From positions 3,538,501-3,602,500 of the forward strand of contig WPIO01000023.1 of the NCBI GenBank assembly GCA_009760855.2: a stretch of 64,000 nucleotides of DNA, written 5' to 3'. Below are positions 34,345 through 61,705 of the stretch, one piece after another (position 1 is the stretch's first letter; each line of letters opens with the position of its first letter). A model generated the notes under the pieces. It saw only the letters and a list, made by a program, of their open reading frames with translations, was not told where the DNA came from and did no database searches. A program made the position numbers and the translations under genes. The DNA comes from Cristatella mucedo (lineage: Eukaryota > Bryozoa > Phylactolaemata > Cristatellidae).

Positions 34345-37300
34345 TGTATATACATGTATATATAGCAGCTGAATGTCATGAAGCTAAGGTGCCACTTTTA
34401 CAGGCTCGAGGCCAGGGGGTGGAGCTTTTAGGTGTTTGCAAAGGCATGCTAAGAATGTCACGATGGCTAGGTAGAATGAGTCCAACATTCTCACTGTACC
34501 GGCTGCAGGCAGCCACTAAGGCAGTGGGCAGTTAAGGAAACCGTGAGAACTCGCAACCACTTCCTGCATGCACATTCCACCCAGCATACTAGATCACACA
34601 TTATGGCACGTCGTCAGCAAGCAGCCTCTAACATAGCGCTAGCACATCAGGTATATTGCAAAGCCAATAAATCAAGCCACACAAAGCTAAGCACACGCGT
34701 ACCTAAATCAGCACACAGAGTCTTGGCAAACTCTTCAGGGCTGTTCAACTTTTCGGACATATCCCACTCGAACTGGTCAACAAGTGCAATATTTCCCACG
34801 TGCATGTTGAGCTACATAAAAACAAATACAAAGTCAAGGCAGCAGCTTTGTAGAGGTCGTACAGTCGATTGAGCAGCAGAGGCATTTGTTGCGGTGCTGC
34901 TCCGAGCAAACGATATTGATGCGCATTCTTTGACACTTTGGGGGTTAGCAAGAGTTCTTCTAATAGCATTTACCTTTATGACAACTCTCCGGTCAGTTAC
35001 TTCCTCAGAAGGGTCGTCCACGGGAAACGATTCGACCTGCTCCCTGATGGAGGCAGCGATGGCCGGCACGTAATCGAATGGACTCAGATCCAGATCCTTG
35101 CATAAGATCTCGGCAAACTGCTCAGGTGTCATCATTTGCTCCGCAGTTACATATACAAACCGGCCTCATTAAAGGAGAGCCATAGCAATGTAGCCTGTGA
35201 GGCATCAATACATGCATCCACAAAGCCTACGCTGAGGCTGACAATCGGCGCCAACGTTGATGACAGCTCTAGACAATCCGACGCGGTGGGAAATCGTCTG
35301 CGTTCAGAGTGTACCGTTTTTGTTCCATGTAAAAGTGTCCCTCAGCTTTTGCCCGTCTAACTCCATGTCCAAGCGAATGGGTACCAATATCTCGCGCTGC
35401 TGTGCATTCTCCTTCACAAGCGCTGGATCTGCCTCATAAAAACTGAAAGAAAGAAAAAAGCATCAGTGCAGACCAGACGAAGGTGTTTCTTATGCGCTGG
35501 TTTTGGCTCACTAAAGTGGGCTAGGTCACGTCCTCCTGGTCTTGGGCCAAGCATTGCTCCAAGCAACGAATTGACCAAGGTTTTGTCGCTCACTTTTAGG
35601 TCCCTTCATTCTATTGCTCCGGTCTATCTCTCAGATATACTACCTCATCAGGCCAAGCATCGTACCACCCGCTTTTCGGAATCCAACAGTCTACAAATTC
35701 CTCGTACAAACCTCAAATCCTTTGGAGACCGTGCATTTAGTTCGTATGCTCCCACAGCCTGGAACTCCCTCCCGACCTGCGTCAGAACATCCCCTGACCT
35801 GACCACATTTAAAAGAAACTTAAAAACACCTATTTAGGACAGCATTTAGTGGGTCCCTGTGATTCGTCCTTGATGTGCTTATCCGTGCTGACACTGTGCA
35901 TGCTGCCACTAACCACATTTGCATGCTGACCCAGTGCATGTAACCCCTAACCATGTTATTCATTTTGTTTGTTTTTCAAGCATGATTTTACTTACTATTC
36001 TATTACGTATCACTTTGCAGAAAATGTAAAGCGCCTAGAAAGAGATTAAGTTCTCTGAGGGCGCTTTATCAAGTGCATTATTATTATTATGATTATTACA
36101 TCGTACAAGACTATTGCTAGCGTTTAAAGGTAGGCAGACAGATGCCCAATGTCGTTCGCATTGACAAGCTTTTTAAGGGATTACATCTGCTAAGAGAGCT
36201 TATGCTGCTTGGCGCATTTAGCTCGGTTTCTCGATGAGCTGCTTTCAGTTGGTTTGCGATCTGTCACGCCCCTCCGTTTTAGAATTCGGTGCTGCTGTGT
36301 AGAAATGTTCACATTGGCTACAGCACGCTGCCGCTTTATCCCTTGTTTTTTGACAATTTGCTTATGTTGTTTTCTTTTTTAAGTACACGTTTTTTGTAAT
36401 TGTGTATTATTTCATGCTTGCAAAACTCTTTGCCAGCCCAAAGAAAGTGATGGCACTGAATAGGGCTGCATTTATTTATTTACTCATTTATTAATCAGCA
36501 TAATCTGAATTTATTCTTTTGCTCGTAGAATAATACACCTTCGTTCAAGTACAGTCATGCCTTCTTCTTCTGGAACATTGTTACAAATCTCCCGGTTTCC
36601 TCCCGTGAATTTCTTGTGAATCCATTTCACGAAGAACCATCGGCCCCAGCAATAAAGCTTTCCTTAGATGATTAATAATTCTTGTCCGTGTAGCCTACTA
36701 GTTGTGAGCTGGCAACATGGGCTGTCAGGGATTTTATTCGGTGAATTCCTCACCCAATTTACGATCGCACGCACGCTAGGCGTAACACAAATTTTCCACA
36801 CGTATTTTCTTTCTATTTTCAATGTATTCTTTGATTTCCGTGGGCAGGTGGTCCTTGAGTGGCTTTCTTATTGCAATATCAGCAGTCTGGAGATAGGCAG
36901 TCATTCCTGTGGGAATCTGTATTTGATCTACTCTTCTCTCTTCGATGAAGTTGTTCATATATTTAGCGTGGTGAGTGCTGGCAGAATCTCAGACTAGCAG
37001 ACCTCATTGGCCATCTCGCAAGACAAGTGGCAGCATTAAACTACTTCCATATAAAAAATTTTGCCCTCCTATAGGACTTATTTTGGCGTAGGGCTTATAT
37101 TACGAGCATCCTGAAAAAGCCGTACTAGATTTTATTTTCCACTACGACTTATTATCGTGGAAATGCAGTATCATTCTACAGATAGAATGGGAATAGCACG
37201 GTATTTGTATATGGAAAGACTGCCAATCAGAATGACGTAAAAAATTCATAATCTTTACACAATTCTCGCCTGCTATCACAATGTGTGCCGTTGGAGATAA

Positions 37301-41929: not shown

Positions 41930-43507
41930 TAATAATAATAATAATAATAATAATATTGCACTTGATAAAGCGCCCTCAGAGAACTTAATCTCTTTCTAGG
42001 CGCTTTACATTTGCTGCAAAGTGATACGCAATAGAATAGTAAGTAAAATCATGCTTGAAAAACAAACAAAATGAATAACATGGTTAGGGGTTACATGCAC
42101 TGGGTCAGCATGCAAATGTGGTTAGTGGCAGCATGAACAGTGTCAGCACGCATAAGCACATCGAGGACGAATCACAAGGACCCACTAAATGCTGTCCTAA
42201 ATAGGTATGTTTTTAAGTTTCTTTTAAATGTGGTCAGGTCAGGGGATGTTCTGATGCAGGTCGGGAGGGAGTTCCAGGCTGTGGGAGCATACGAGCTAAA
42301 TGCACGGTCTCCAAAGGATTTAAGGTTTGTACGAGGTATTTCTAGACTGTTGGATTCCGAAAAGCGAGTGGTACGATGCTTTGCCTGATGGGGGGTAGTA
42401 TATCTGAAAGATAGGCTGGAGCCATAGAATGAAGAGACCTAAAAGTGAGCGACAAAACCTTGAAGTCAATCCGTTGCTTGACTGGTAACCAGTGCAGGTC
42501 GGCGAGAAGTGGAGTAATGTGGCAACTGCGACGCTCACGACAGACAAGCCTAGCTGCAGAGTTTTGCACCAGCTGCAATCGCCTGATCGCACATGCTGGT
42601 AGGCCAGTAAGCAGTGAGTTGCAGAAGTCGAGACGAGATGTCACGAATGCATGGACCAACTTGGACGTGGTATCCTTATCTAAACAAGCCCTAATTTTAG
42701 CAATGTTATGAAGCTGAAAATAGGCTGATTTGACCTTGGAGCTGATGTGGTCGTCTAACGAGAGGTCGCTTTGGAATATGACACCTAGATTTCGAGCTGA
42801 TGCAACTGGAGATATGCTGGCAGAGCCAATTTTGAAAGTCAGCCTTTCCAATTTCTGAATAACACTAGGTTTGCCCATAACTAGTAAGTTAGTTTTATCA
42901 TCGTTTAGTTTTAGAAAATTTGCTGCCATCCATGATCGGATGTCATCAATGCATGCAGCAAGTGAGTTGAGAGAATTTGAGGTGCTCGAAGGCTGGGAGG
43001 GATCAAAGCAAAGGTACAACTGAGTGTCATCCGCATAGAAGTGAAAGCCTAGATTGTGCTTGGCAATCACGTCAGCAAGAAGGAGAGTATAAACGGTGAA
43101 AAGGACCGGACCTAGCACAGAGCCCTGAGGTACTCCATATTTTAGAGGTACTTCAGATGATCTTTGTCCATTCACGTCAACACTCTGGAGTCTCCCACTG
43201 AGATAGGACCTGAACCACTGCAGAGCAGTGCCAGTGATGCCCAGGCGAGATGAGAGGCGCTCTAGAAGTACTTTGTGGTCGATGGTATCAAAAGCTGCCG
43301 AAAGATCGAGCAAAACAAGAAGAGACACTCTACCCATGTCTGCATTCCTAAGTAGGTCGTTGTATACCCGAAGCAATGCTGACTCTGTGGAGTGATTAGC
43401 TCTAAAGCCAGACTGGAACTTACTAGCAAGGTGTGAGGTTTCGATATACGAGTTCAGCTAGTCTGCCACGACCCGTTCCAGTGTCTCTGATAGGAATGGT
43501 AGTACTT

Positions 43508-49063: not shown

Positions 49064-52000
49064 ATGCCGGCGGAGAGGGCGGGCAAGACGATAGCCTCCG
49101 TGCCGCGGCCGGAGTCGGCCGAATCCAATGCCGACCTAGCGAAGGCGGCCGAGGATCTGCCGCTGATCTTCATCGGTCACCTCGAGTCGAAGTATCAGTG
49201 CGCTCTGTGCACGAAGTTCCTGAAGAACCCTCTGCAGTTCGAGGAATGTGGCCACAGGTGCTGCCTGACATGTCTTCCGGAGCTGCTAAGGTGAGTACGT
49301 CAGTCGCGCTGGCACCGCCGGCGCGGACTAGAGCGGCCGACGTTTTTTTCTACTCCCTCTCGAGCCGGGGTCAAGGGTCAAGCCGAGCGGCTGCTCTTAT
49401 CCCAGGAAGCCTTGCTGCGCCAGCTCGACTCGACCAAAATGCTCAGCCGCCCCTGCGGTGGCCAGAGGCCGAGCTTGCCCCCTCCCCTCCGCTTGAGGCC
49501 ACTTTGAAGCGGGCACCTGCTGACCGTCTGCTCATCTGTCCAGGGGTGAAGTGCTAGCTCTTCAAGACTCGGATCTTGGGTTCGAGTCCTTTAGCAGGCA
49601 ACCCTTTACTGCCCACTGTAAGCGGAGTTGTAGCTGCTAAATGCCTTTCGCCGGTACACCAACGAGGTTTTTGAAACCGCCGATTTACCTTTTATCTCAG
49701 TGTAATTCTTTACCTGCTCGCAGCCGCTGTAAAACCTTTATTGGCTTGCATTATCATAGGGGCTATCGCCACTGGGATTTAAGCCCAGGGAGTTAGGTGC
49801 TCCATCTTCACGACCCAGGTCGCAGGTTCGATTCCTGCAGTGGGCGATCCTTTATTGCCCACTGCAAGCGGGAGTGAAGGTCGTTAAGGCTCTTTGTCGC
49901 TATAAAAATGACGCTGTTAAATCAGCTAACTATTTTGTTTATCATTTATCTAAAAAAAAGACCAATAAGAACCCAATGGGCAGCTTAAAAATCACTATAA
50001 GCTCGAAGTTGCAACTACCTTGAGTAACGCGCCATTCGGCCAGGCTACGGCGAGAAGTCGTGTACGTATTCACTAAACGTGGTTGCCCTCCTCCACCCGC
50101 CGTAATCAAATTCCGCCGCCATTATTGTTGGCAGTGCTGATAAAGGTATGCAGTCTGCTAGGCCTATAACCACAACTCGCACCTGCCGAGAAACAGAAGA
50201 CGTCGACGAGTCGTAAACTCAAGAACTTACAGCCATACGCAATTGTCAAAGCATGTCTTACGGTGGTCAGTATCGTAGAGAGCCGCTATATCGAGAACGG
50301 CAATCCATGCTACAGGTTTAAGTATACTGCAGCCAGAACTAGTAGGGTCTTGGCTTTCCCGTCCGCGCTCCTTGAGGGCATCCTCGGGGCAAGCGGTCTT
50401 CACCAAAATGCGTGCGTCATGGGCGACTGACCTTTAGTTACCAGGTCATTGGATACTTTGGCCTCGTGATTCCTTCGCCTAGGTCTCTTTCCCTCACCGG
50501 CCAAGACCTTTCTTTTTTTTGCGCAACTTCCTTCTTGTCATCCAAAGCGGTTTGCTTGCTTGCTTCGTGAACAATTCGTCAAGCTTCGTTAAATAAACGC
50601 GACCTCAACTATGGAAGTAAGGCGATCGAAAAGCGTATTTATCCCTGCATACGTTTGGAACTAAAATTTTAATTACTATTTCCCGATTCATAGCACAAGC
50701 GAGACGGCATTTCGCTGACCCTATCAACCGCCGATGGTATTTTTTTAACTCTATTTTCCCCTCAAGAGACTATTAATTACTACGGATCAAACTAATGTAG
50801 CTGCTGACAATTGACCGGCGAAAAATACCCAGGCCTCCTGGACAGGCTAACTCTGGGATATTCTACATTAAAATGAGATCCATTATATATTAGCGCCTCT
50901 CTGCTCTTTTGATCACAAGCCTGCTTTCATGCTTTTTATCTAAATTAGCCATGGATTTGTGTACTGCCACGCTAGCATTAATCAGAAAAGAAAATTCGAA
51001 CACGGCTAACATCGCGATCGCTCTGTCATTTATTTTGCGTTCCTTAATTCACTTGCTTCGGCCCTGTCTATCTGAAATATACCATAATCAGGCTTTCTGT
51101 CATATCACTCGCTCTTATCTCCAAGTCGTGTAGCTATGCCTCTAACCAAACTCGAATCCTTTAGAGACCGTGCCTGCTGTCTCAATGTTTCCATATGCCT
51201 GGAACTAATTACCGGCGTACATAATAATAATAATAATAATACACTTGATAAAGCGCCCTCCGAGAACTCAATCTCTTTCTAGGCGCTTTACATTTGCTGC
51301 AAAGGGAATTACAATTGAATGGTGAGCGATATCATGCTTGATAAACAACATGAATAACATGTTTAGGGGTGACATAGGGTGACATCATGTGACCCTGACC
51401 TAACGGAACCTCACGAGTTCCTCTCAGCATTTTGGTTTGTCCGTATGCATTGCCTTTATGCGATGTGTACTTAAATTGTGCTTCGTATCACTAACAAATT
51501 GACATACTTCCTCTGCAGCATACGAAACGTGCCTAATCTAATTCTCTTCGAGCGCAATGCAAGCGTTTGACTATTATTAGTGCCGATGCATTTATCACGA
51601 GGCCTTTTTTTATTTTTAGAACAACAGCCCGGTGTCCACTGGATCAAGCAAAAGTCACCAAAAACAACGTAAGTTGGTAGGGCCACTGTTGCTGCAGCGC
51701 ATCCGTCAGCGCATCCTCCTTCTTTCACGATGCACGCGATGCACGCCTAGCACGTCCTTGCATCGAATACTGGGGAGCAGCACCTTGCAGAGTGAGGTTA
51801 TGCTCCCCCAGAGCGAGGTGCTGCTCTGTTTAGCCAATTACTTCACACGCACAAAACCTAAGCAGATGAAGTTCAGAAGCATCAGAATTCCATAGCTCGT
51901 ACATGCTTCGGTAGAGTACTACGGGCGATAAAAAGTGGTTTCCTGTACAAGCTCTTACGCATTTCGGTGGCTCTCGCAAAAGTGAACCTCACTAGCTGGA

Positions 52001-55000
52001 TTCACAGCGCGCTTTGCTACCGCTGCTATACATGCATTTGTGCTGCACCTTTGACTCGTTAGCCGTGCTTCGAGGCTCTAGTTCCAGTTTTGGTATTCGG
52101 TAACGCGGCAATCAAGTCCAGCAAGTGTTAAGAGCACTGTTTTTTGGGATAAAGTCTTAATAGTTCGCAACCTTTACATGGTTTTGTAGCTAAAAAGCTA
52201 GAAAGATATTTTGCCATCCCGGCTTGGCCCAGCGGTAAGGTGCTCGCCTTTAACGACTGAGGTTGTCTGCTCGAGCCCTGAGACATATGTGAAGTGCAAG
52301 GGTGAAGATTAAGTTCGCTTGCAGTGCTGTACAAAATGTATCATATATTGCATTATGTACATTTACTTATCTATCCATCTTAGGTCGTCAAAGAGAAAAT
52401 CGTACAGCTTATAATCTTTAATAAAAACGCTGCGTCAGCGCCCCTGCGATGTGTCAGTCTTAATCTGGGAAACGCTGACCAGGGGCCCATTGACTACCGG
52501 TACGCTATACCCGAGTTGATGGCTAAAATTTGGTATTTTTTGGTCGCACACTGGTACCTCTAGTGCCTAGCGGTCTCGATGCCAGCGACCGCTGAAAGAG
52601 CGATCGGCCAATCGTTGCGACCGTAGATCTGGATATGATAAATAGACATGGCGGCGAAACTCCAAGGCACCGACCATTATGAGTAGCTGGCAAATCACCA
52701 CAATAAATTATAAAATAAATCATGATAGATTTATGCCCACGCATAAAGACCTTTGGCGACAGAGGCTTTTGCTCTGAAGGTCCTAGACTGTAGAACTCAC
52801 TTCACACATTTCGTATGCAACGACATCTATTCTCCTGCTGCCGACTGTGGCACATCCTTTCCGGCCGTTCTGAGCTACTACTTCCAGACCCCTTTGATCG
52901 CCTTCTTTTTTTGTATAAGATGAAGTCTGTTGGATACCGAGTGCGGACTGGAAGCGTCTTAGACTTAAGTGTGGTATAGAAAAATTACCTGTATAACTAC
53001 TATTTAGTCTTTGTGACTTTCTCGAGTTACTGACGGAGATAAATTAGATTGCATTAAACAGCAATGACAAGTGTGAAGAACTAATGGTTACGGTTTAAAA
53101 AAAGCAAATTGCTTAGCATACCAATGGTTGAAACGCCGGATGCACTTTCTATAAGAGTTTGACATCAACTATTTTTCGGCTTAGTTCTTGATAGAAAATA
53201 TTCATATGATGCTCTTAGTATAATTTATTTTGGATACACAACCACAAAATGCAGAGTCTCTAATCAGTGCATTGAGAAGTAGCCGTGCAGCACAGCCGTA
53301 GCATTTGTAATCTTCCTGTTATTGCTTGCCATCAGACGGAAAGGAGCCTTAACAATATTGGCGCAAAACTAAAACAACTCTCCCCCCCCCCGTGAGACTC
53401 ATTCCAAAGGCGGTCGTTTCCTTTAAATAAATAAATCCTAGCTGATTAAACAGCTTCTTTTTGTATAGCGACAGTAGAGCCTTTACGGCTATCACCACCG
53501 CTTGCAGCGGCGATAAAGAATCGCCCACCGCAGGAATCGAACCCACGACCTCGGGACCGAGGTCATGAAAGCAACCGCCTTACCTAGTGTGCCATCACGG
53601 CTCTTTTAGTCGGTTCTTTTAGAAAAAGAAAAATACGGGAGCGAAAATGGAAAAAAGAGTGATAGTACTAAAGGGAGTACGAATAGGGAAGGAGAGGTTA
53701 ATTTGGGGAAAAGGCTGGAGAGAACAGATGAAGCTAGAGAAAGAAAGAGCCGTAGACAGACCCAATAGAGACAGGGATAGAAAGATCAGAGATAGAGAGT
53801 CAATGAGAGAGAGAGAGAGAGATAACAGTGCATGGTAACAGAGAAGACCTTGCATTCATTCCAAATTATTTACCAATTTACACAGCGAACGAAAACCGCG
53901 GACTAAAATTCGGGCTTACTCCAAAAATACAACAGACGTTCGGTGCCCCCCCCGTGAGACTCATACCAAAGGCGGTCGTTGAAGTAAGCTATTGGCTGGA
54001 ACCACGGATTATTAAAGACTTCCCCAATACGTGCGCCTGCTGAATTCCCTCCCCCCCCCCCCCGGCTGAGAGCACTCTGCGAAAGCAACTTTGTAGGAGA
54101 ATGGCCGCTGCGTTAGCTATCCGCTCGCATGAGAGCCGTCTGTTTGCCATTGTTTAGCGAAGCTACTCGAATTTGTTCAGACGAGGTCCGCAGAGGTCTC
54201 TGCAGGGTGGTGAACCTGCGTGCAGCGTGCAGCAGCTTCAAGCTCTGTCTCCGCGGCGGGCGGAGCTTGGACCGAGGGGGAGGGCGGCCTGCAGAGGAGC
54301 TCCGGGAAGTACTCGTTGACAGAGCGCTGCGAGTTCTCAGTCGGCCTCTAACGCGAGGACTGAAACCTCTGCGCAGCTTCCGACACAGCGAGCCTCGCAG
54401 ACAGTGGGATAGAAGCGAGCGACCAGCGATGACGAGAGAGGGGCGCCGCCAGCCGTCCAGGGCGCGCCGTCCAAGGATCTTGACATTCAGCAACGTCACT
54501 CGGCTGTGTTGCTCGAGCACAGAACCGCACGCACGCAGTGGCGGCGAGCGAGCGAGTGACGTTTTTACATTTTTTTCAGAGGAGCTGCAAAGCCCCTGCC
54601 AAATCTCTCGCTCGTCAGCTTCTCTCCTTCCTTCTTTCTCTTCTCCTTCTCTTCTCTCCTTCTCCGTCTTCGTCGCATCTTCACAGCTTCTTTCCGACTT
54701 TCTTTCCGACTAATTTGTTCATAATAAAAATGCCCTGGAAATGCACTGCGGCCATTGGCCGTCGGCAGCAATTAGTATTTCTTTACCTGTATTAGCTAAA
54801 ATAAGCAAGCTACGTCCGCAAGACCTGCGTCCGCCCAATCACTCATTTTTTATCCGAACAAGCCAGGTGGGCGCTGTTTGAAGGAGGCGCGTCTGCTCTC
54901 GGCTTGCGAAGCTGTCTGGACGGGGAACTTCACTGAGTGACGACGTCACGCCCTCTAGCGAACTCTGGTCGCGCCGACTCGAGGTCTAGATTCAGCCGCC

Positions 55001-55907
55001 TCCCCGGTCCCCCTTCGGGAAAAAACTCCCCACTAGGGGCTTGACGCCGCACATGTACCAGCTGCTCTGTTTCTCTTTCAGACTTTCGCCGACAAGACAA
55101 TTATAAAAGAGATGGAAAAACTTCCCATAAAATGCTGCAACCATGCGGCTGGCTGCAAATGGAAAGGAGTCGTCAAAGAGCTTCCGGTGAGCGCCACTCA
55201 AGAACATGAGCACCCGCTTACCGCGCAGCTTGCCAAGTCGGACGAGGGCGCTCCGACGGAGGCGCGTTTCTCTCTTGCACTACAGGCTCACAACGACGAA
55301 TGCCCGTTCTGCGTCATTTCCTGCCAGAGGAAGTGCGGGGCGACGTTCGAAAGGCGGCAGCTTGTCAAGCATCAAAAGGAGACCTGTCTAAAGCGCGATA
55401 CGATATGCGAGTATTGCAGGGAGGTGGTGCCGGCAGACGAGATGATGCCGCATCTAAACGTTTGCAGTCGATATCCGGTCTACTGTCCGAACGAGTGCAC
55501 GACGCAGCACATGCCGCGAGAGCAGGTACGCATGCCTGCGCGTAAGTGCGGTGCACACAGCAGCGGATACTGACGTCAAAGTCAACGGTGAAATCGCAAT
55601 GCTGTTTTCTCTGCCTTTTAGCTGGATGTGCACCTCGAAATAAAATGCACCCAGCGCGACGTTCCGTGTCCTTTCACCGAGTGCGGGTGCGAGTACAGGG
55701 TAAGCGAGCGCGTTTCCATGAGCTCACTCTCCTCGCCATCAGCACCGGTATATCAGTGAAGCTCTGAAATGCGCCCTACGGCGCACGGCACCGAACGTCT
55801 GTTGTATTTTTGGAGTAAGCCCGAATTTTAGTCCGCGGTTTTCGTTCGCTGTGTAAATTGTTAAATAATTTGGAATGAATGCAAGGTCTTCTCTGTTACC
55901 ATGCACT

Positions 55908-55978
<71 letters not shown>

Positions 55979-58900
55979 GACTCTCTATCTCTGATCTTTC
56001 TATCCCTGTCTCTATTGGGTCTGTCTACGTCTCTTTCTTTCTCTAGCTTCATCTGTTCTCTCCAGCCTTTTCCCCAAATTAACCTCTCCTTCCCTATTCG
56101 TACTCCCTTTAGTACTATCACTCTTTTTTCCATTTTCGCTCCCGTATTTTTCTTTTTCTAAAAGAACCGACTAAAAGAGCCGTGATGGCACACTAGGTAA
56201 GGCGGTTGCTTTCATGACCTCGGTCCCGAGGTCGTGGGTTCGATTCCTGCGGTGGGCGATTCTTTATCGCCGCTGCAAGCGGTGGTGATAGCCGTAAAGG
56301 CTCTACTGTCGCTATACAAAAAGAAGCTGTTTAATCAGCTAGGATTTATTTATTTAAAGGAAACGACCGCCTTTGGAATGAGTCTCACGGGGGGGGGGAG
56401 AGTTGTTTTAGTTTTGCGCCAATATTGTTAAGGCTCCTTTCCGTCTGATGGCAAGCAATAACAGGAAGATTACAAATGCTACGGCTGTGCTGCACGGCTA
56501 CTTCTCAATGCACTGATTAGAGACTCTGCATTTTGTGGTTGTGTATCCAAAATAAATTATACTAAGAGCATCATATGAATATTTTCTATCAAGAACTAAG
56601 CCGAAAAATAGTTGATGTCAAACTCTTATAGAAAGTGCATCCGGCGTTTCAACCATTGGTATGCTAAGCAATTTGCTTTTTTTAAACCGTAACCATTAGT
56701 TCTTCACACTTGTCATTGCTGTTTAATGCAATCTAATTTATCTCCGTCAGTAACTCGAGAAAGTCACAAAGACTAAATAGTAGTTATACAGGTAATTTTT
56801 CTATACCACACTTAAGTCTAAGACGCTTCCAGTCCGCACTCGGTATCCAACAGACTTCATCTTATACAAAAAAAGAAGGCGATCAAAGGGGTCTGGAAGT
56901 AGTAGCTCAGAACGGCCGGAAAGGATGTGCCACAGTCGGCAGCAGGAGAATAGATGTCGTTGCATACGAAATGTGTGAAGTGAGTTCTACAGTCTAGGAC
57001 CTTCAGAGCAAAAGCCTCTGTCGCCAAAGGTCTTTATGCGTGGGCATAAATCTATCATGATTTATTTTATAATTTATTGTGGTGATTGGCCAGCTACTCA
57101 TAATGGTCGGTGCCTTGGAGTTTCGCCGCCATGTCTATTTATCATATCCAGATCTACGGTCGCAACGATTGGCCGATCGCTCTTTCAGCGGTCGCTGGCA
57201 TCGAGACCGCTAGGCACTAGAGGTACCAGTGTGCGACCAAAAAATACCAAATTTTAGCCATCAACTCGGGTATAGCGTACCGGTAGTCAATGGGTTCTGC
57301 CCACCAGTGCTGCCCCTGGTCAGCGTTCGCCAGATTATGATTGACACATCGAAGGGGCGCTGATGCAGCGTTTTTACGCCAAGCTGCCGCGGCAATTTCA
57401 TATTTATACGTTGCTCCTATGGCTATCCATGTTTCCAGAATTGACCTACTCTTGGCTAAAAAAAATTTCCTTGGAGACAGAAATATTAAATTCCAGAGCT
57501 GTTCCGGTGGCCTTGAGGTTAACGCCACAGTTTTTTGAAGCTCTTATTCGAATCCTGCAGATCGCAGGGATTTTCGCCGGTCAATTTACACTGCTCTATT
57601 GAAGCTAACCATCACCGACCAGTCCACAGTGCCAAAGTGACAATTGGGATAAGACGGCAACCTTAACGTGGTTCCAAAAAAGCCACTCTCAGATCGGTAC
57701 GATGCGTCCTCGTCTATAGATAGGGCTATAAGGATGACAATTACCACAAATTTTAAGTCTTACTTTGCCAGTCTTTGCCTAGGCTAGTTCCAGCAATTTT
57801 GAACACGGTGATCCAAAATGCGTCCTCAAAGCTGGCCTTGGCATTCAGAAAATGATGCTAGCCCAGCTGCTAAGAGCGAGTCTAGAGGCAGACAAGGCGG
57901 TTCGCTAAATAAACCCTCTCCGATGACGTCTTTACAGAGCCCAAGAAAGGACATGGCTAAGCACATCAAGGAGCAGCCGATAAAGCATCTAACCATGCTC
58001 GGCATTGCCGCTGGGACGTCGAAAAAGAAGATCGAAGCTCACTCGGTGACCTTAGACAAGCATCGTGATTTGATTGGTAACACGCTTTTAAAAAAAGGCT
58101 TTTCTCCGGAAATTTCTTTTCTATTTTTTGATTTTTACAATGCACTTGCGTTCAAAATGAATTCACATGACCTGTAATTTGATAAAAAAAAAAACGAGCA
58201 AGTCTTTTAAAAACCAAGGACGCCAATCCCAAGTCGGCTTTGAGCACCTCCTTTAGCAGCCGCATGCCATTCGCTTCTTATCATTCCGTTAAGAGTAAAG
58301 CGCTCGGCGTGCGCTCTCTCCCTGATTCGGACACGAATGACCAACATATGTCTATGTACTACATACATGTTTTGACGCCTTCCGGCTTTCTGGTGCCAGC
58401 CTCTCACTTTTTATTTCAAAACCAGACCCCTATGATTATTTTATATCACGACCATAAAGATTCTCCTGACTCCTGGTGCAAATAAATGTTTCGGCGACAC
58501 CTAGTATCCAATAATTCACCACTTAAGCAGTCAGCTACCGGCATCTGAACGCGCAATATCTCTGTATATTAAAAATTTTTGCTCAAAAAATATCTGTACA
58601 CTATTGAAATCCACAAAATCAAGGTCATGAAAGCTGATTTATCTCTGTGTAAATATCCTTCTCATTCAGCAGCTTGACGTTATAATAGACACTAGCTGTC
58701 AATAGCCGCCTTCATTTTCCTAATTTTAAGATAAGTCAACGAGAAGCGTCACAAGCTTTGAGAAACTGTACGGCGCCCAAATGATTTGGAAAATAGATGG
58801 GTATGCTCAGAAGTTTGAGGAAGCCAAGACGGGAAAGAAGCCGATTATATACAGTCCGCCGTTTCTAACCCATCGAAATGGTTACAGACTGATGTTGTCA

Positions 58901-60848
58901 GCCTGCCTGAATGGAGATGGAAAAGGTAAGTCTCAAATGAAATCCAGCCCATTTCAGGTGCTACTGATTTGATGCAATCTGTCAAAGCCGCTGTTCAGAT
59001 TCCATCTCTTTTTGCCTCTGCACTAGAATGTGCAAGGCTTTCAATTGTTTTAAATCCCTCGAAAGTAAAGTGAGATCTGGATTTCGCCTTCCGTATCGCC
59101 CGTCGCGGTTGCGACGCTCGAAACAGGTGGACATTTTTGATTAGCTTATTTTTTGTCGGTTCAAACAAGTCGTTTACATGCAAATCAATGCTAACATTGG
59201 CGGTCAGAATTTCTCTCGTGAAGGACAATGAATTCGGTTGAGTTAGTTTCTTTATTTCGGATGGCCTATCAACTTCCGTCGAGGCATATGTTCTCATCCG
59301 CAGCAGGAGCCAAAATTCTCTAACGAGGATTAAAACCCTCAATCCTTGTGTGATGTCCGCCACAGTGATGCTTAATTTCAAACCATCTATTCACAACCGA
59401 AAGTTTTGCCTAGACGGATAAGACCAGATGTTATCCCTAAAAGCAGCTTTATCCAATCATGCTAGTGACTGTGTGCACGTAAGTAGGTCCCGTATTCATT
59501 GACGGAATCCATGTGCAGGCACGGAAATGCTTAAAAGGGTACAAGCCTGGTTCTATCTTGCGGGATGTAAAATATCCCCTATTGCAATTAAAAAGCGCTT
59601 TTCTAAGCGGGTCCTTGGTAAAGAGCGTGAACTTTAAATAAATAGATGGCTCCTGTCAACCTACTTACAAAACAGCTTGCACATATTCTTACGATTTCAA
59701 GATTTTCTATCGATCATTGCAAAGGCACAATGGTAACAGACTTCGGGAAAAACAAATTACTGGACACGAATGCAATAAAAGTGATTTCTGATCGGCCTCC
59801 CAAGTTTCCGCGAACCTTATCGATTGAATTCGAAAGTAAACAATGTTGCTGATCCAATGATGGACCACTCGACCGCATTTAAATGATGAGAGTAAAGTGC
59901 CATGATTTTATATGGTTTAGATGTGTCGGAAAGACATTTTCAAACGAGAGGATGTGCTATTAAATTTTTTCAGTATGCTTTGATGAGGTAAATAAACTAG
60001 CCTTGAAAATTTTTTACACACATCCTCTAGTATAATATAATAATAATAAGCTTCTTTACGCTTAGACCAAAAATGGCAGTGGCGGACAAGTCATTTGTTT
60101 GTACATTTTCACACTGGTGGTTGATGGTTTAACAGGCCGTGCGGCTAATGGGTAAGGAAATGCACTACACCGTCTTTAAAGTTTAAGTAACCTGTGACAA
60201 TTGCTACTGAAAATGTTTACTTACGACCAGCAGCAGGAAATTCTGAAAGTTTGGTTGACCAATAGCAGCTGCTGCTGCATTTTCAGTCAATCGCGGGTAT
60301 TCAGATGATACAGGGATCTCCTCTGCCTGCCAGGCTAGCAACAGACTCAACTTGGGACTAATATTGAGAACTTTTTAAAAATCAGAAACCAGGCTCTTCC
60401 CAGCTTCATTCTCACATTCACTACGACCACGTGGCCTAAAAAATAGTGCAACCACATTCGGTCATTCAACCAGCCATCCTTACATTGTGTGCACGCGAAA
60501 CAGCTCAGACCCGATTGAATGATTTGAATGGACCCACAATGCAATGCCTCATGTATATTGCATTGTCGGTTCCTCAGAGTCTGGGAGCATGATCCAGGTC
60601 TCTGGAGGAGAAATTTTAAAAATAGCCTATCTGCTGAAAATCTATAAATGCGATGCTTTTGTTTAGTACACCAGTCGTAACCACTGAATTTACTGACTGC
60701 CAGCAAATTATATAACAGTTTAAATAACCCACTTGTTCCTTACAGCATTTGCTCCGTCCTCGTGAATTGTCCTTTGTGTGCTTATTCGTGCCGACACTGC
60801 ACATGTTCTCACTAACCACTTGCCATGCTTTTTTCAACATAAATTTGC

Positions 60849-60908
<60 letters not shown>

Positions 60909-61705
60909 TGCCTAGAAAGAGCAACCTATCAGTAACCACTGGTAATAACTGTTCCTACGAGCAAGAAACCATTTGCTTGAAACTTCCACTTATATCACAT
61001 CACGGATCTTTTACTGTCATGTCTGCTATTGGATACCCCTTCGCCGACAGTTTGTTCTTCCTCACTGTTCTAGTCGCGGATTCCAAAATCTACGCCTGGC
61101 CCATGTATTTAGGCTCTGCTTGTAGTGCAGCCACGAAGTTATTATTAAATATAGCATTGATCATTTTAGTTAGTTGGCATCAATTAGATTGCTACACTTA
61201 AAAGCACTTGCAGACTTTACGAGCTGTGTCCAAAAATAATTGTTGGATTGATAAAATGCACAGCTTTCGATGGCCTCATTAGATTCGTCTGAAAACTACT
61301 CTAGCTGCCAAGTGGTGTGATGCTTGTTGCGAGTGCGTGGTTCTAGGATAAGTTGGGCCAGCCATTATCTTTTTAGTCAAGGACAGATCTATGTCTCTCT
61401 ACATATGCGTCTGCAAAGGTGACTTCGACGCACTTCTATTCTGGCCATTCAATCACCGGGTGACTTTTACGTTGATCGACCAATGTCAGGATCCCGAAGC
61501 AAGAAAGAATGTGACCTATTCAGTAAAGCCTAATACAAGCAAGGAGAACAAGCAGTTCTTGGGACGACCAGCAGGCGATAAGAACGCTAGCTTCGGAGCG
61601 CAGAAGTTCTGCGACCTGATAATGCTCAAGACTCTTGATTACATCCGTGAAGACACGATGTTTATTAAAGTTGTGGTGGACGTTGACGACATGACAGTTG
61701 TTTGA
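49064..61705 (+). CDS. TRAF family protein (RING, TRAF zinc fingers, MATH), complete 8-exon gene
   Basis: Exons: 49064-49290, 51620-51668, 55082-55186, 55286-55525, 55622-55699, 57938-58076, 58731-58925, 61377-61705. They join in frame to 453 residues ending at TGA 61703-61705; all introns are GT-AG with matching phases. Residues 46-84 form the RING (CALC, then ECGHRCCLTC, then CPLD), split by the 49-nt exon 2. Residues about 111-260 hold a series of TRAF-type C/H zinc fingers (CCNHAAGCKWKG, AHNDECPF, CQRKCGATF, CEYCREVVPADEMMPH, CPNEC, CPFTECGCEYR). A short linker leads to the MATH/TRAF-C domain from about residue 295 (MIWKIDGYAQKFEEAKTGKK, IYSPPFLTHRNGY, LNGDGK, FDALLFWPFNHRVTFTLIDQ). TRAFs are trimeric cytoplasmic adaptors, and RING members are E3 ubiquitin ligases downstream of TNFR/IL-1R/Toll-type receptors. 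The lack of a long coiled coil makes the subtype unclear. The start at 49064 follows ggggag; an upstream in-frame extension is open but looks like CpG-rich leader. Confidence 0.93.
49541..49680 (+). mobile_element. SINE-A in TRAF intron 1
   Basis: B box gggttcgagtcctttagcag, then caaccctttactgcccactg and a diverged tail. The A box is weak. Confidence 0.7.
49780..49940 (+). mobile_element. SINE-A in TRAF intron 1, second copy
   Basis: agcccagggagttaggtgct, B box gcaggttcgattcctgcagt, gggcgatcctttattgccca and the tail gacgctgttaaatcagctaa. Well preserved. Confidence 0.85.
51020..51390. mobile_element. Opposed LINE-A fragments in TRAF intron 1
   Basis: 51020-51220 is forward and decayed (cctttagagaccgtgcctgc near its end). 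51221-51390 is a reverse, better-preserved 3' end with its (ATA)n tail, acttgataaagcgccctccg and ggcgctttacatttgctgca. The younger copy breaks the older one within its ORF end. Confidence 0.8.
52216..52345 (+). mobile_element. SINE-B in TRAF intron 2
   Basis: Head cccggcttggcccagcggta, aggtgctcgcctttaacgac, B box gttgtctgctcgagccctga and a diverged tail (gaagattaagttcgcttgca). Confidence 0.8.
52423..53947 (+). repeat. Left arm of a 1.5-kb inverted repeat in TRAF intron 2
   Basis: This arm is the reverse complement of 55787-57375 with few differences. Inside it lie, in order, a degenerate outer part, a forward LINE-B 3' end (52738-53060), a reverse SINE-A (53425-53603) and a GA-rich tract with a run of GA units near 53808. 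The 198-base frame at 53349-53546 is the exact inverse of 56234-56431. The GA tract is much shorter here than the matching CT run in the other arm. Confidence 0.93.
53425..53603 (-). mobile_element. SINE-A inside the left arm
   Basis: Reverse SINE-A with an intact B box (gtgggttcgattcctgcggt on the minus strand). It mirrors the right-arm copy, so the SINE was present before the inverted duplication arose. Confidence 0.9.
53948..55081. other. Loop sequence before TRAF exon 3
   Basis: Part of TRAF intron 2 lying between the inverted arms. It has C-rich tracts at about 53947 and 54050, a CpG-rich block 54110-54560 whose overlapping open frames (194 codons at 54129-54713) look compositional, and a TC-rich tract 54615-54700. 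A CpG-rich block here could be an internal promoter, but no transcript evidence is available. Confidence 0.4.
55912..55976. repeat. (CT)n microsatellite
   Basis: About 32 uninterrupted CT units. The equivalent tract in the left arm has fewer than ten, so it has changed length since the arms were duplicated. Confidence 0.95.
56178..56356 (+). mobile_element. SINE-A, best-preserved copy
   Basis: Head agccgtgatggcacactagg, taaggcggttgctttcatga, B box gtgggttcgattcctgcggt, gggcgattctttatcgccgc, tail gaagctgtttaatcagctag and a short attt repeat. Used here as the family reference. Confidence 0.92.
57376..57937. other. TRAF intron 5, remainder
   Basis: Mostly unrecognised. 57505-57570 has a SINE-A-like A box (ggtggccttgaggttaacg) and B box (attcgaatcctgcagatcgc), probably an old SINE-A. 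Confidence 0.4.
58926..61376. other. TRAF intron 7
   Basis: A 2.45-kb intron. Apart from the LINE-A fragment at 60743-60925 and an AT-rich patch near 60035 it shows nothing recognisable. Reverse-strand open frames at 58995-59381 and 60347-60706 have no domain signature. Confidence 0.4.
60743..60925 (+). mobile_element. LINE-A 3' UTR fragment carrying a (GT)n tract
   Basis: LINE-A 3' UTR landmarks (gtgcttattcgtgccgacac, then tctcactaaccacttgccat) precede a (GT)n run at 60855-60906, followed by agtgcctagaaagagcaacc, the start of the terminal module. The final tail is missing. Confidence 0.7.

Follow-up and report, generated by a model that had tools for sequence, protein, structure and literature searches.

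A 64,000-nucleotide (nt) stretch of the genome of the bryozoan Cristatella mucedo (assembly GCA_009760855.2, contig WPIO01000023.1, positions 3,538,501 to 3,602,500 of the forward strand; hereafter the window) contains a TRAF4-like gene, three exons of which lie between the arms of a long, nearly perfect inverted repeat. Coordinates of the gene and the repeat, numbered from the first base of the window, are collected in Table 1. The gene model comprises eight exons with GT-AG junctions that together encode an open protein of 453 amino acids (aa), and exon order, phase, and strand are kept across the inverted repeat; the model begins with the exon at 49064. A Pfam scan of the model identified a RING domain, TRAF-type zinc fingers, and a MATH domain in this one protein. 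The best of 49 protein matches was a TRAF4-like protein from another bryozoan, Watersipora subatra (56% identity over 94%), followed by a match in Lingula (49%), and an alignment with five relatives showed no block lost or gained where exons 2 through 6 meet.

The outer splice sites of the block formed by exons 3-5 are canonical, with an acceptor CAG before 55082 and a donor GTAAGC after 55699. This block measures 423 nt and is in phase 0 at both ends; its omission would place exon 6 directly after exon 2 without a frameshift, deleting 141 aa that include the bulk of the zinc fingers and leaving the frame open. If the same 423 nt are closed into a circle, the coding frame is free of stops, as is one other frame; the remaining frame contains stops. 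No known RNA family was found at gathering score between 49000 and 64000.

The inverted repeat and its arms

Pairwise alignment of the two arms recovered 9 mismatches in 1,526 ungapped columns. Only three of these (52692, 53750, and 53873) fall in the inner 1,461 columns, which are 99.8% identical. The arms also differ twice in length: by 18 bases of the right arm (about 57294-57311) that the left arm lacks, where the diverged outer part gives way to the near-identical inner part, and by a 46-base excess in a microsatellite of the right arm. The sequences outside the arms are mutually unrelated flanks, and the end of the left arm is separated from exon 3 by 1,134 nt.

The original prediction, made from the sequence before any search, had described a large, nearly perfect inverted repeat around the TRAF zinc-finger exons, with arms of about 1.5 kb in introns 2 and 5 and a 1.84-kb loop, and the alignment bears out this structure (arms of 1,526 and 1,590 nt, loop of 1,839 nt). 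The high identity that had been anticipated was likewise recovered, but with divergence distributed unevenly along the arms. Of the proposed span, 52423-57375, the structure stands and the outer ends were one base short on each side (52422 and 57376). The coordinates given for the three enclosed exons agree with those in Table 1, and their numbering as exons 3-5 is right, given the preceding 49-nt exon that supplies the rest of the RING domain.

Table 1. Features of the TRAF4-like gene and of the inverted repeat within it (window coordinates)
Feature	Position	Strand	Remarks
TRAF exon 1 as modelled	49064-49290	+	First in-frame ATG taken as start; first half of RING
TRAF exon 2	51620-51668	+	49 nt; second half of RING; phase 0 end
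Left arm of inverted repeat	52422-53947	+	1,526 nt; in TRAF intron 2
Outer 65 bases of left arm	52422-52486	+	91% identity to 57312-57376; 6 mismatches (within 52434-52470)
LINE-like fragment(s), left arm / right arm	52740-53056 / 56724-57040 (about)	+ in left arm	70-83% to other window copies
35-base arm stretch	53384-53418	+	Copied at 53946-53980
tRNA-headed SINE, left arm / right arm	53429-53603 / 56177-56351 (about)	- in left arm	Many genome copies, 93-98%
35-base near copy	53946-53980	+	34/35 match; exactly at left arm's inner edge
Loop separating arms	53948-55786	+	1,839 nt; carries TRAF exons 3-5
TRAF exon 3	55082-55186	+	105 nt; phase 0/0
TRAF exon 4	55286-55525	+	240 nt; phase 0/0; TRAF-type zinc fingers
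TRAF exon 5	55622-55699	+	78 nt; phase 0/0; donor 87 nt before right arm
Right arm of inverted repeat	55787-57376	-	1,590 nt; in TRAF intron 5
TC microsatellite, right arm	55912-55975	+	GA/CT repeat; 46 bases longer than in left arm
TRAF exon 6	57938-58076	+	Phase 0 start
TRAF exon 7	58731-58925	+	Start of MATH domain
TRAF exon 8	61377-61705	+	Remaining MATH domain; stop codon

Within the window, the arms 52422-53947 and 57376-55787 form the top-scoring inverted pair. As a background sample, 20 stretches of 10 kb from elsewhere in this genome were surveyed for inverted matches of at least 100 bases, with at most the four longest considered per stretch. None contained arms of at least 1 kb at 98% identity or more (0/20), in a sample where a 10-kb stretch contains a whole 5-kb structure of this kind in only about half of placements and where one stretch includes 2,500 N. 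The largest inverted pair in the sample (stretch L033, 3251-8087) consists of two copies of a long interspersed nuclear element (LINE), 89-91% identical, around about 2.4 kb. A second inverted pair in the window (35560-36098 and 41936-42480) is composed of LINE pieces at 94.9% identity, 5.8 kb apart, and a quasi-palindrome at 22411-22651 matches its own reverse complement at 84%.

Genome-wide searches were made against the species' own assembly (572 Mb, 688 contigs) with a method that skips very common words. A query with the middle of the arm (53060-53380), free of the embedded short interspersed nuclear element (SINE), returned two places only, the two arms themselves, and a query with the outer right edge plus its flank matched only itself and the left edge. 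A 1,337-base arm query returned the two arms and many SINE matches (40 of 9,277 candidates scored). The original prediction had noted a LINE and a SINE embedded in both arms, and comparison with other copies in the window confirms that both are shared; the SINE is headed by a transfer RNA (tRNA)-like sequence, and its head is presumably at 53603, where we place it by likeness to a tRNA-like start. These embedded pieces are dispersed, and the bulk of each arm is neither SINE nor LINE.

Because the genome searches placed the arm middle and the outer edge in this pair alone, with dispersal limited to the SINE and LINE parts, the arms are best explained as a local inverted duplication and not as two transposon insertions. 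Judged from these matches, one arm was copied locally and in inverted orientation from the other, and each consists mostly of locus-specific sequence; this sharpens the earlier proposal of an inverted copy to a duplication seen nowhere else in the genome searches. A pair of separate insertions of the same transposon, oppositely oriented as in inverted Alu pairs, could be suspected from the SINE and LINE pieces within the arms, and ordinary LINE-pair inverted repeats do exist in this genome (89-91% in stretch L033, 94.9% in the window). However, most of each arm is neither element, and its middle and outer edge are confined to this pair; with no further copies of the arm middle and edge found in the genome searches, we rejected a pair of the inverted-Alu type and regard it as very improbable.

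The loop was found at a single place in the assembly, in one orientation and one copy. Inverted repeats are difficult to assemble, and one arm might in principle derive from a chimeric read or a mis-join. Such an artefact is very improbable because the loop is single-copy, the gene is open through the structure, with exons 1-8 in constant order, phase, and strand, and the arms differ from each other (nine substitutions, the 18-base gap, and 46 microsatellite bases) between unrelated flanks. As for an alternative haplotype without one of the arms, the loop's single occurrence means that the assembly holds no second copy for comparison.

Three further features lie in the loop or elsewhere in the window. 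A GC-rich portion of intron 2 within the loop (54113-54713) is open for 198 aa on both strands (54117-54710 on the forward strand, 54116-54709 on the reverse strand); neither 198-aa frame has a Pfam match, and the portion is possibly regulatory sequence. A LINE reverse transcriptase frame occupies 42345-43457 on the reverse strand (371 aa, PF00078), with copies in stretch L033 at about 89-94%. An open frame at 34815-35165, also on the reverse strand, has a SNF5/SMARCB1 match (PF04855, E 4.3e-09) and represents a second gene piece in the window.

History of the arms

Of the nine mismatches between the arms, six cluster in the outermost 65 columns of the 1,526 aligned, which would be very improbable for arms with a single origin and even divergence (hypergeometric P 3.6e-7, or 1.7e-5 when corrected for 65-base windows); this border was picked after inspection of the data. 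A dispersed, unrelated repeat is not seen to explain these outer 65 bases, since the genome search matched them to no place beyond the two arms. The abrupt change in divergence suggests that the repeat is older than its inner part appears, and that gene conversion between the arms later made the inner 1.46 kb uniform, stopping near the 18-base difference. Under such a history, a segment of intron would have been duplicated in inverted orientation within the TRAF gene, the outer 65 bases would have gone on diverging, and recent conversion between the arms would have reset their inner parts. Compared with the majority sequence of 20 sampled copies, the arm SINE has 4 differences in 169 positions, none of them private; the 20 are the best-matching copies and so a biased sample, and this count may be taken as weak further support for conversion.

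In the main competing account, a single recent replication template switch (break-induced or fork-switching) copied the right arm into intron 2, with no conversion; the outer mismatch cluster, the 18-base gap, and the 35-base copy would then be scars of one error-prone event. The 35-base near copy of arm sequence, which we infer to be a templated insertion, coincides with the inner edge of the left arm, while the cluster of mismatches and the 18-base gap are both at that arm's outer edge, and an inner divergence of 0.2% suits a single, young origin. In yeast, templated inverted duplications of very short length have been reported at breaks (PMC11724301). However, six changes in 65 bases, or about 9%, is in our judgement a very high density for synthesis errors, and we consider a template switch possible but on the unlikely side.

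Predicted folding and RNA products

The original prediction had also proposed that the arms form a hairpin in the precursor messenger RNA (pre-mRNA), and computational folding predicts such a hairpin. Folding of the two joined arms by themselves gives -2994 kcal/mol and 1,518 inter-arm pairs, compared with -401 and -427 kcal/mol for the single arms. The 5,041-nt segment folds at -3677 kcal/mol, with 1,518 of the 1,526 left-arm bases paired with the right arm, into one hairpin that holds the exons in its loop, and no exon bases are paired outside the loop; a control of this segment with the right arm reversed gave -1594 kcal/mol and 205 inter-arm pairs. These values reflect a capacity to pair and not its use, because any perfect inverted repeat would fold in this way.

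If the arms do pair in the pre-mRNA, the resulting single hairpin would likely promote some back-splicing and in-frame skipping of exons 3-5. Candidate products are a circle of 423 nt closed by a 55699-to-55082 junction, an mRNA for a RING-MATH protein that lacks exons 3-5, and transcripts with adenosine-to-inosine (A-to-I) editing. In Caenorhabditis elegans, reverse-complementary matches in introns are reported to be needed for back-splicing and skipping alike, and at zip-2 matches of even 7 and 13 nt are needed for normal levels of the circle and the skipped RNA (PMC8330042). Inverted Alus are described as acting likewise in human genes, where ADAR1 loosens the duplex (PMC11263572). By analogy with the worm intron matches and the human Alus, some circular and skipped TRAF RNA would be the likeliest consequence of the structure, probably at a low level.

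Taken as a whole, the reading in which the arms were made alike by recent arm-to-arm conversion, and in which the predicted hairpin promotes some back-splicing and in-frame skipping, has in our view about an even chance of being correct. Several points weigh against it. The conversion claim depends on six mismatches within a 65-base edge; the test with the SINE is weak, in that about 7.8 differences would be expected of an insertion matching the outer divergence in age and P(<=4) is 0.11; and a replication template switch would account at least equally well for the 35-base copy beside the left arm. As regards the RNA, the folding program leaves out proteins and kinetics, 1,134 nt separate the left arm from exon 3, and the introns could be spliced out during transcription before the arms pair.

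The inverted duplication may instead be real and intronic yet a mere passenger in the DNA, with no noticeable effect on TRAF RNA, either because splicing precedes pairing or because helicases and ADAR remove the duplex. The TRAF gene model, open and alignable throughout, is consistent with this, and young repeats are reported often to have circular RNA loci as their by-products (PMC8516420). However, near-perfect complementarity over 1.5 kb far exceeds the 7- and 13-nt matches reported to affect zip-2 splicing (PMC8330042). We regard a silent duplication as a serious contender, nearly as likely as conversion with hairpin-promoted splicing and partly overlapping with it; the two confidences are not exclusive because the DNA history may be right while the RNA effect is nil.

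Arms of such identity, 1.84 kb apart, could by analogy also invert the loop. In the most elaborate version of this idea, the locus would be a flip cassette in which recombination inverts zinc-finger exons 3-5 in some cells, colony members, or alleles, making TRAF switch between the full protein and a RING-MATH form, while the uninverted gene would yield a stopless 423-nt circle, possibly translated endlessly into zinc-finger repeats. We judge this scheme as a whole highly unlikely. RNA circles made in vitro with an endless frame are reported to be translated in cells (PMC4639774), and by analogy endless-frame translation of the TRAF exon 3-5 circle is no more than a possibility. Circular, skipped, or edited RNA and an inverted loop are each plausible candidate products.

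Significance and comparison with known systems

An inverted repeat around exons is a known kind of structure, and the example described here is unusually long and clean. Such repeats are usually short or built of scattered transposons; in the TRAF4-like gene, one long, near-perfect, locus-specific repeat encloses exactly a phase-0 block containing zinc fingers. A literature search combining "bryozoa" and "circular RNA" yielded a single paper, whose title points to a different subject. If the predicted RNAs exist, the locus would offer a clean test, set up by nature, of the strength with which pairing between introns promotes circles and skipping, as well as a test of the frequency of conversion and inversion between short-spaced arms.

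Circular RNA loci that depend on intron pairing, whether through reverse-complementary matches or inverted Alus, resemble the TRAF locus in having complementary sequences in both introns flanking an exon block (PMC8330042, PMC11263572). The TRAF locus differs from these in that its arms stem from a single local duplication of 1.5 kb, not from a pair of short matches or from separate SINE copies, and in that its circle is a predicted one. Gene-converting palindromes, such as P6 of the human Y chromosome and those of primate X chromosomes, share with the TRAF arms a very high identity around a spacer (PMC3723533, PMC8981503), and conversion in human P6 is reported to be rapid and far commoner than inversion (PMC3723533). 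The TRAF repeat, by contrast, is far shorter and lies inside the introns of one gene, and its putative conversion is read from one divergence step. The intron-1 repeats of F8 (int1h) are, like the TRAF arms, near-identical inverted copies, one of them in an intron, and they are reported to recombine, inverting part of F8 (PMC7507428). However, the int1h copies lie about 126 kb apart and only one is within F8, whereas the two TRAF arms sit inside a single gene, around a 1.84-kb loop that carries three exons.

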